Of a DNA stretch of 64,000 nucleotides, positions 59,365 to 59,528 are shown piece by piece. Numbering within the stretch: the stretch's first letter is position 1; each line of letters begins with the position of its first letter. Under the pieces are notes generated by a model. That model was not told the DNA's origin. It saw only the letters and a list, made by a program, of their open reading frames with translations, and did no database searches. Position numbers and translations under genes: made by a program. Source of the stretch: Planctomycetota bacterium (GTDB lineage Bacteria; Planctomycetota; UBA8742; UBA2392); contig JADZFR010000003.1 of NCBI GenBank assembly GCA_020849795.1, forward strand, positions 55,756-119,755, read 5' to 3'.

Positions 59365-59392
59365 TTGACCGGTCAAATTTCCCCGCTATCTT
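59365..59392 (+). promoter_or_regulatory. sulphur-operon promoter with palindrome over the -35 box
   Basis: TTGACC (59365-59370), 16-bp spacer, TATCTT (59387-59392). The -35 box is half of a perfect 12-bp palindrome TTGACCGGTCAA (59365-59376), possibly an operator. The predicted start point is 59399-59401, at the leader-peptide ATG. Confidence 0.7.
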
Positions 59393-59400
59393 TTCGCCCC

Positions 59401-59475
59401 ATGAACACCAAGACCAAGATGTGCTGTCTGATGTGCGCCCACAACGGTGGGTTGCGCTCGGGCATGGTCTGCTGA
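59401..59475 (+). CDS. cysteine-rich leader peptide 1 (upstream of cysC)
   Basis: 24 codons, MNTKTKM-CC-LM-C-AHNGGLRSGMV-C then stop. Cys codons at positions 8, 9, 12 and 24. No Shine-Dalgarno sequence; the -10 box ends 8 nt before the ATG, so translation on a leaderless transcript is predicted. A terminator and an alternative antiterminator follow, then cysC. This is what a peptide sensing cysteinyl-tRNA supply should look like; Cys-rich leaderless upstream ORFs acting this way have been described in mycobacteria. Confidence 0.85.
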   Translation: MNTKTKMCCLMCAHNGGLRSGMVC

Positions 59476-59528
59476 TTCATAGACTTTCCCTACGCAACGC
59501 CACCGCAACCGCGGTGGCGTTTTCTTTT
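59438..59528 (+). promoter_or_regulatory. cysteine attenuator 1 (alternative RNA structures)
   Basis: Hairpin 1:2 is CCCAC-AACG-GTGGG (59438-59451). Antiterminator 2:3 pairs GGTGGGTTGCG (59446-59456) with CGCAACGCCACC (59493-59504), 11 bp with a single bulged G. Terminator 3:4 is AACGCCACCGC-AACC-GCGGTGGCGTT (59496-59521). A ribosome held at Cys8/9/12 would block segment 1 and favour 2:3. Confidence 0.87.
59496..59528 (+). terminator. attenuator terminator upstream of cysC
   Basis: 11-bp perfect stem with an AACC loop followed by TTCTTTTT, 21 nt after the leader-peptide stop and 34 nt before the cysC ATG. Confidence 0.92.

Follow-up and report, generated by a model that had tools for sequence, protein, structure and literature searches.

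In a 64,000-nucleotide stretch of DNA from an uncultured member of the Planctomycetota (hereafter the window), a sulfate-assimilation gene cluster holds two short Cys-rich leaders, and these very probably belong to two tandem, ribosome-mediated cysteine transcription attenuators, of which the first would be near-leaderless and the second would be translated after cysC. An initial annotation of the same DNA had read the first leader as an amino-acid attenuator ahead of sulfate-assimilation genes. This reading is supported by the conservation of the element, by two-sided base changes in its 2:3 and 3:4 pairings and by the families of the genes behind it. By all sequence criteria but one, element 1 is a real, conserved, cysteine-coded transcription attenuator, and it is doubled in series; the second element, which sits ahead of a 42-aa frame, a PF03601 gene and a cysI-cysH fusion, was absent from the annotation.

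The gene cluster and putative attenuator 1

All features of the cluster lie on the forward strand. The first gene, cysC (59562–60122), encodes an adenylyl-sulfate kinase (APS kinase), with matches to PF01583 (7e-61) and, above cut-off, to TIGR00455 and NF002059. A frame of 42 aa (60262–60390) separates attenuator 2 from the PF03601 gene. By inspection it appears to be a membrane protein with a hydrophobic C-terminal half; it has no family match, and a tblastn match to it was found in 5 of 11 named Planctomycetota loci. The PF03601 membrane protein (Cons_hypoth698; 60394–61416), identified by a Pfam match with no NCBIfam match, is one that we take to be YeiH-like and transporter-like. It is followed by the cysI-cysH fusion (61406–63667), in which sulfite/nitrite reductase-type domains are joined to a PAPS reductase (PF01077, PF03460, PF01507, NF002537 above cut-off), and at the end of the window there is presumably the start of a siroheme-type methyltransferase, judging from sequence resemblance. 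A second cysC copy (L161, G000:C2:149010-149543) is 69% identical, adjoins an ATP sulfurylase gene and has no flagged Cys leader. Among the loci of this second paralogue and those of other families of the class (L157–L169), a single frame was flagged (L165), and it was unlike the leaders described here.

Leader peptide 1, MNTKTKMCCLMCAHNGGLRSGMVC followed by a stop codon (59401–59475), has 24 codons with Cys at 8, 9, 12 and 24, letter for letter as annotated. The promoter in front of it (59365–59392) consists of TTGACC as the −35 (59365–59370), a spacer of 16 nt and TATCTT as the −10 (59387–59392), which ends 8 nt 5′ of the ATG. This promoter, too, had been named in the annotation, and it was the only one found when 58800–60200 was scanned (1 versus a shuffle mean of 0.2).

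Three mutually exclusive RNA pairings had been proposed behind the promoter, and all three were located. Arm 1, GTGCGCCCAC (59433–59442), overlaps the Cys12 codon, and the core of the 1:2 pairing is formed by CCCAC (59438–59442) and GTGGG (59447–59451). Arm 2 (59446–59462) consists of the core GGTGGGTTGCG (59446–59456) and outer bases. Arm 3, CGCAACGCCACCGC (59493–59506), can take either arm 2 as its partner, giving the putative antiterminator, or arm 4, giving the terminator. The 2:3 pairing between GGTGGGTTGCG and CGCAACGCCACC (59493–59504) has 11 pairs and one bulge. The predicted intrinsic terminator (59496–59529) has the annotated stem of 11 bp (59496–59521) and then the T-rich run TTCTTTTT; it was among the two terminators found in the scan of 58800–60200, where the shuffle mean was 1.3, so that the bare terminator count of this region is not unusual. 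The 130-nt RNA of leader 1 folds with a z of −4.8, and 0 of 200 shuffles folded as well.

When we considered all 226 ATG frames of 15–30 aa on both strands of the 64 kb, only two had at least four Cys together with a terminator-like hairpin within 75 nt. These were the leaders at 59401 and at 60127, which have 4 Cys in 24 residues and 4 in 20, respectively; three simulated 64-kb sequences gave no such frame.

Conservation among relatives

The comparison set of the family comprised 16 genomes, with the named loci L035–L044 and L064 counted once together with the G-handle contigs. Conservation of the Cys codons and the paired arms in relatives had been set beforehand as a check, and attenuator 1 was indeed present in 15 of the 16 genomes (RNA model E of 2e-11 or better). 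The sole genome lacking it is G003, whose cysC is 59% identical. When the RNA model, R1, was run over 294 genomes, matches at E 2e-11 or better were confined to these 15. Weaker R1 matches were considered as further sites; the ten that were opened, eight from family relatives and two from the genome of the window itself, all lacked a Cys-rich leader and resembled plain terminators. In a sister family, genome L021 carries the leader MFSVRKASCCCQPPPVGALPMALL, ending at a stop codon, with a terminator and an antiterminator with an 8-bp core, ahead of cysC.

In most genomes the Cys codons of leader 1 lie 24, 21 and 12 nt ahead of arm 2; as exceptions, the second Cys is missing from L016, and Trp replaces the third in L017 and L018. 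The N-terminal residues vary, and differences in N-terminal length amount to whole codons, the extreme case being an insertion in L009. The distance from the ATG to arm 2 is a multiple of 3 in all 14 family leaders measured, and these distances were taken from a measurement that did not force the frame.

As to other phyla, across loci L001–L114, where many genomes occur twice, as a G handle and as a named record, we found 60 frames with at least three Cys and a terminator, and 50 of them are copies of leader 1, leader 2 or the L021 leader. The other ten, of which L097 was inspected, look unrelated. Flagged frames also occurred at the sat loci (four) and the cysE-like loci (two), and by coordinates none of them lies within 300 nt upstream on the strand of the match.

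Putative attenuator 2 behind cysC

Leader peptide 2, MRETRRNKCCKMMPCAKGPC followed by a stop codon (60127–60189), begins 4 nt past the cysC stop. Its final codons contain arm 2 of this attenuator, GGCCCGTG (60178–60185), which is complementary to arm 3, CACGGGCC (60210–60217). Arm 3 in turn extends into the 5′ arm of another predicted intrinsic terminator (60213–60240), in which the hairpin GGGCCGCC-TTCA-GGCGGCCC (60213–60232) is followed by TTTTCTTT.

Leader 2 with at least three Cys was found in 12 of the 16 family genomes, and with two Cys in a 13th (L019); a frame of this type was not seen in L017 and L018. In nine of the 12 genomes the distance between the cysC stop and the start of leader 2 is 4, 4, 4, 4, 5, 1, 1, −4 and −4 nt, with an overlap through ATGA in two of them, and in the remaining three it is 12, 19 and 36 nt. 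That leader 2 is close to the cysC stop or overlaps it argues for its translation after, or coupled with, cysC.

Base changes and folding of the paired arms

For attenuator 1, 12 of the 15 family leaders were aligned; L011 and L018 were excluded as near-duplicates and L016 because of a shift by the aligner. The 2:3 antiterminator was paired in 88.8% of cells, compared with 33–55% for slid registers, and the 3:4 terminator in 96.2%. Two-sided changes occurred in 11 cells of the former and 10 of the latter, and 0 of 500 shuffles reached either value; the covariation score of 2:3 likewise exceeded all 500. The shuffles ignore relatedness, however, and relatedness by itself can raise such cell counts and scores beyond every shuffle. 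In this sense the relatives hold the covarying 2:3 and 3:4 pairs for which the initial annotation had proposed to search. The numbers of covarying pairs themselves were not exceptional, at 4 for 2:3 (shuffle mean 2.8, reached by 112 of 500) and 3 for 3:4 (shuffle mean 1.7, reached by 56 of 500). The 1:2 pairing was paired in 89.2% of cells with no two-sided change and no excess over shuffles; of the three exclusive pairings, covariation thus speaks for two and not for that of arm 1.

With 11 of the 12 leaders of attenuator 2 aligned (L011 excluded), 96.0% of cells were paired and three had two-sided changes, with a covariation score reached by 15 of 500 shuffles; the single covarying pair compares with a shuffle mean of 0.9 and was reached by 383 of 500. 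We consider a predicted antiterminator that excludes the terminator to be supported by covariation in attenuator 1 and more weakly in attenuator 2.

The arms of each genome were also compared with arms swapped between genomes. For attenuator 1, own-arm duplexes had a mean of −24.6 kcal/mol versus −20.8 for swapped arms (n = 15), although no more than 10 of the 15 own pairs were stronger than their swapped mean; for attenuator 2 the means were −24.9 versus −22.6 (n = 12). In 10 of 12 genomes no more than 7 of 300 shuffles equalled the own-arm duplex of attenuator 2; in L014 and L015, 54 and 17 did so.

For the truncated RNA of the window, equilibrium folding gave a 2:3 pairing of 0.77 without a ribosome, 0.87 with the ribosome at the stop codon, 0.87 with a stall at the first early Cys and 0.62 with a stall at the last, and values this similar with and without a stall mean that equilibrium folding does not separate the two states. 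Over 15 sequences, stalling at the first Cys raised the predicted 2:3 pairing by more than 0.3 in nine and lowered it in none; with a ribosome at the stop codon it stayed low in just two, L007 and L010. Such equilibrium predictions fall short of proving the switch, and they suggest that the choice between terminator and antiterminator would be largely kinetic.

Other amino-acid leaders in the window and the family

The window also contains a Trp leader, MTSTMNNLVRAWWWTPSRCRA followed by a stop codon (51740–51805), with the run WWW, an antiterminator and a terminator hairpin (51828–51851), ahead of the trpE ATG at 51875. No consensus promoter was found for it in the window, and by eye there is a −10-like TATATC near the ATG. 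In six of six relatives (L207–L212) a WWW or WQWW frame with a hairpin and a T-run was recognized by eye, in four of them (L207–L210) with a trpE-like start directly behind. The same kind of control thus appears to be present before trpE in the same window.

At 6 of 11 cysK loci (L236, L238, L240–L243), a frame ending in M-C-[CR]-[AV]-R-stop lies about 135–150 nt before the cysK match; the one in the genome of the window (L240:1336-1482) ends in GAMCCVR and a stop. Hairpins are predicted at these six loci with no evident U-run terminator, and 7 of 24 predicted pairs show a two-sided change, the covariation term being nil for six sequences. The cysK leader is perhaps a translational cysteine attenuator. 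One of the 16 genomes, G003, has a Cys leader before cysS, MKMLNTSLCCLAHDPCIGG with its stop codon (L217, reverse strand 1269–1328), with a T-tailed hairpin and a promoter, TTGACT-N16-TATCTT, 8 nt before the ATG, and short frames ending in CC precede cysS in three other genomes (L223, L225, L226). It is possible, though somewhat less likely than not, that the family has a cysteine regulon governed through near-leaderless Cys leaders of two mechanisms, namely tandem transcription attenuators (cysC, then transporter-cysIH) and terminator-less, probably translational leaders (cysK and some cysS).

The cysK leaders, with their C-terminal Cys and no evident U-run terminator, raise the question of whether the two leaders of the sulfate-assimilation cluster also act via translation, Cys stalling freeing the ribosome-binding site of the gene that follows and the hairpins being ordinary terminators or insulators. 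Mycobacterial cysteine genes with such leaders are described as translation-attenuated in PMC13236596, which cites Canestrari 2020. We nevertheless find this explanation improbable, because in both attenuators the terminator competes with an arm within the leader frame, for which two-sided changes with its pairing partner were observed, and because an AGGA-type site belonging to cysC itself lies 32 nt 3′ of the T-run in the window.

Promoter geometry and a proposed leaderless start

The best-scoring promoter spacer was 16 nt in 15 of the 16 leaders scanned. Between the −10 and the ATG of the 15 family leaders the gap is 8 nt in nine, 9–11 nt in three, and 13, 15 and 23 nt in the other three. 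A Shine-Dalgarno word is absent before 14 of them; the only leader 1 with AGGA is that of L016, which also has the longest gap, 23 nt. The annotation had called the attenuator leaderless, and this geometry of promoter and ATG suggests that leader 1 is near-leaderless. In 464 kb of family DNA, 8 of 208 gene starts at a first ATG were preceded by a TANNNT that begins at −12, versus 0–4 at the other positions from −40 to −4, a peak which suggests that a minority of genes in the family may be leaderless. The joint count of −35, −10 and ATG at the leaderless spacing was 5 versus 0–4 for seven other triplets, with no clear excess.

The −35 of leader 1 is contained in a palindrome, TTGACNNGTCAA (59365–59376). 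The palindrome occurs in the window at 53702, 53996, 56174 and 59365 (4 versus 0.06 expected), three of these sites being inside trp genes. There are 110 copies in the genome of the window versus 4 for the reversed control, and each of the 16 family genomes is rich in it (18–229 per genome versus 0–4 for the control). As a shared divergent −35 the palindrome was rejected: of 10 sites in 464 kb, five are in genes and five between genes, and at no site did starts lie close by in both directions.

In 9 of the 15 family promoters the −35 and the palindrome overlap, and this, together with the strong over-representation of the palindrome in all 16 genomes, could be taken to mean that the actual switch is a protein bound at TTGACNNGTCAA, with the leader in a secondary role, or that the RNA senses cysteine directly as a riboswitch. 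Either is very unlikely, since TTGACNNGTCAA is missing before the leader of the nearest relative of the window and of five others, all of which retain the leader, and since an Rfam scan of 58000–61500 gave three chance-level matches far under the gathering threshold, so that no Rfam family was assigned to the region. That the Cys-rich peptides themselves function as small metal- or thiol-binding proteins, with hairpins that simply end or separate transcription units, is very unlikely even though MCCLMCAH-GG is fairly conserved in leader 1, because the conserved Gly codons are the RNA of arm 2, leader 2 and the N-termini vary freely with the Cys codons retained, and two-sided changes link arm 2, in frame, with arm 3, past the stop codon.

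Discussion

The mechanism that we propose for the two tandem transcription attenuators involves ribosome stalling, switching between pairings, cysteine as the signal, a leaderless start and a transcript that both attenuators would share. RNA polymerase would start at the first ATG or within a few nt of it, and a ribosome would bind the 5′ end, which lacks a Shine-Dalgarno site. If Cys-tRNA runs short, the ribosome would stall at Cys8, Cys9 or Cys12, 24 to 12 nt ahead of arm 2, and cover arm 1, so that arm 2 pairs with arm 3 and the polymerase reads into cysC. With Cys12 in the A site, the leading edge of a ribosome with the usual footprint size would reach roughly to where arm 2 begins, with arm 1 covered. 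When Cys-tRNA is plentiful, the ribosome would proceed, arms 1 and 2 would pair behind it, and the 3:4 hairpin with its U-run would end transcription. Transcripts that pass would be read through cysC, where a ribosome that ends there, or one that re-initiates, may translate leader 2, whose Cys codons would repeat the cysteine test ahead of the PF03601 and cysIH genes.

This arrangement shares with the classical attenuators (trp, his, leu, thr) the codons for the end product in the leader, a competing antiterminator, a U-run terminator and the cognate biosynthetic genes. It differs from them in its amino acid, cysteine, in a first leader that is probably near-leaderless, in its occurrence in Planctomycetota and in the presence of two attenuators in one cluster, with the first structural gene preceding the second of them.

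Cysteine attenuation as such is already known, from mycobacteria and from cysS of Rhodobacterales. The initial annotation had placed cysteine attenuators mainly in actinobacteria, which has to be amended: PMC8632094 predicts one before cysS in Rhodobacterales, and the mycobacterial ones are called translational in PMC13236596. Candidate cys leaders of Actinobacteria are characterized, in PMC1262725, by Cys runs near the stop and no conserved terminator, and PMC4633059 reports Cys-rich leaderless frames in mycobacteria. As far as these accounts go, the mycobacterial polycysteine ORFs resemble our leaders in being Cys-rich and ahead of sulfur genes, and they are leaderless; unlike them, leader 1 has early Cys at 8, 9 and 12 of 24 codons, before arm 2, and a U-run terminator. 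The Rhodobacterales element, uORFC-8-2, as it is presented in PMC8632094, likewise combines tandem conserved Cys codons, at about positions 14–15, with an intrinsic terminator and predicted transcription attenuation. It precedes cysS in Alphaproteobacteria, whereas here the genes are cysC (Cys 8–9) and PF03601-cysIH, with two attenuators in series; a cysS version of the Cys leader does occur in the family member G003. Leader peptides at the 5′ end of the transcript, as we suppose for leader 1, are described for LeuL1, TrpL2 and IlvL of Streptomyces lividans in PMC8079986, and these differ in concerning other amino acids, in being actinobacterial and in having a mapped start, the start here being placed from sequence. 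For planctomycetes, the open-licence literature yielded nothing on point for cysteine leader-peptide attenuation or leaderless transcripts.

If our reading is true, cysteine-dependent transcription attenuation would extend to the Planctomycetota and to the sulfate-assimilation genes themselves. A 5′-terminal ATG would mean that classical attenuation is workable without an upstream ribosome-binding site, and L016, with its longer 5′ gap and AGGA site, offers a natural comparison for the leaderless start. Two attenuators in series in one operon make a testable circuit, and two such sensors would give a steeper and polar response to cysteine than one.
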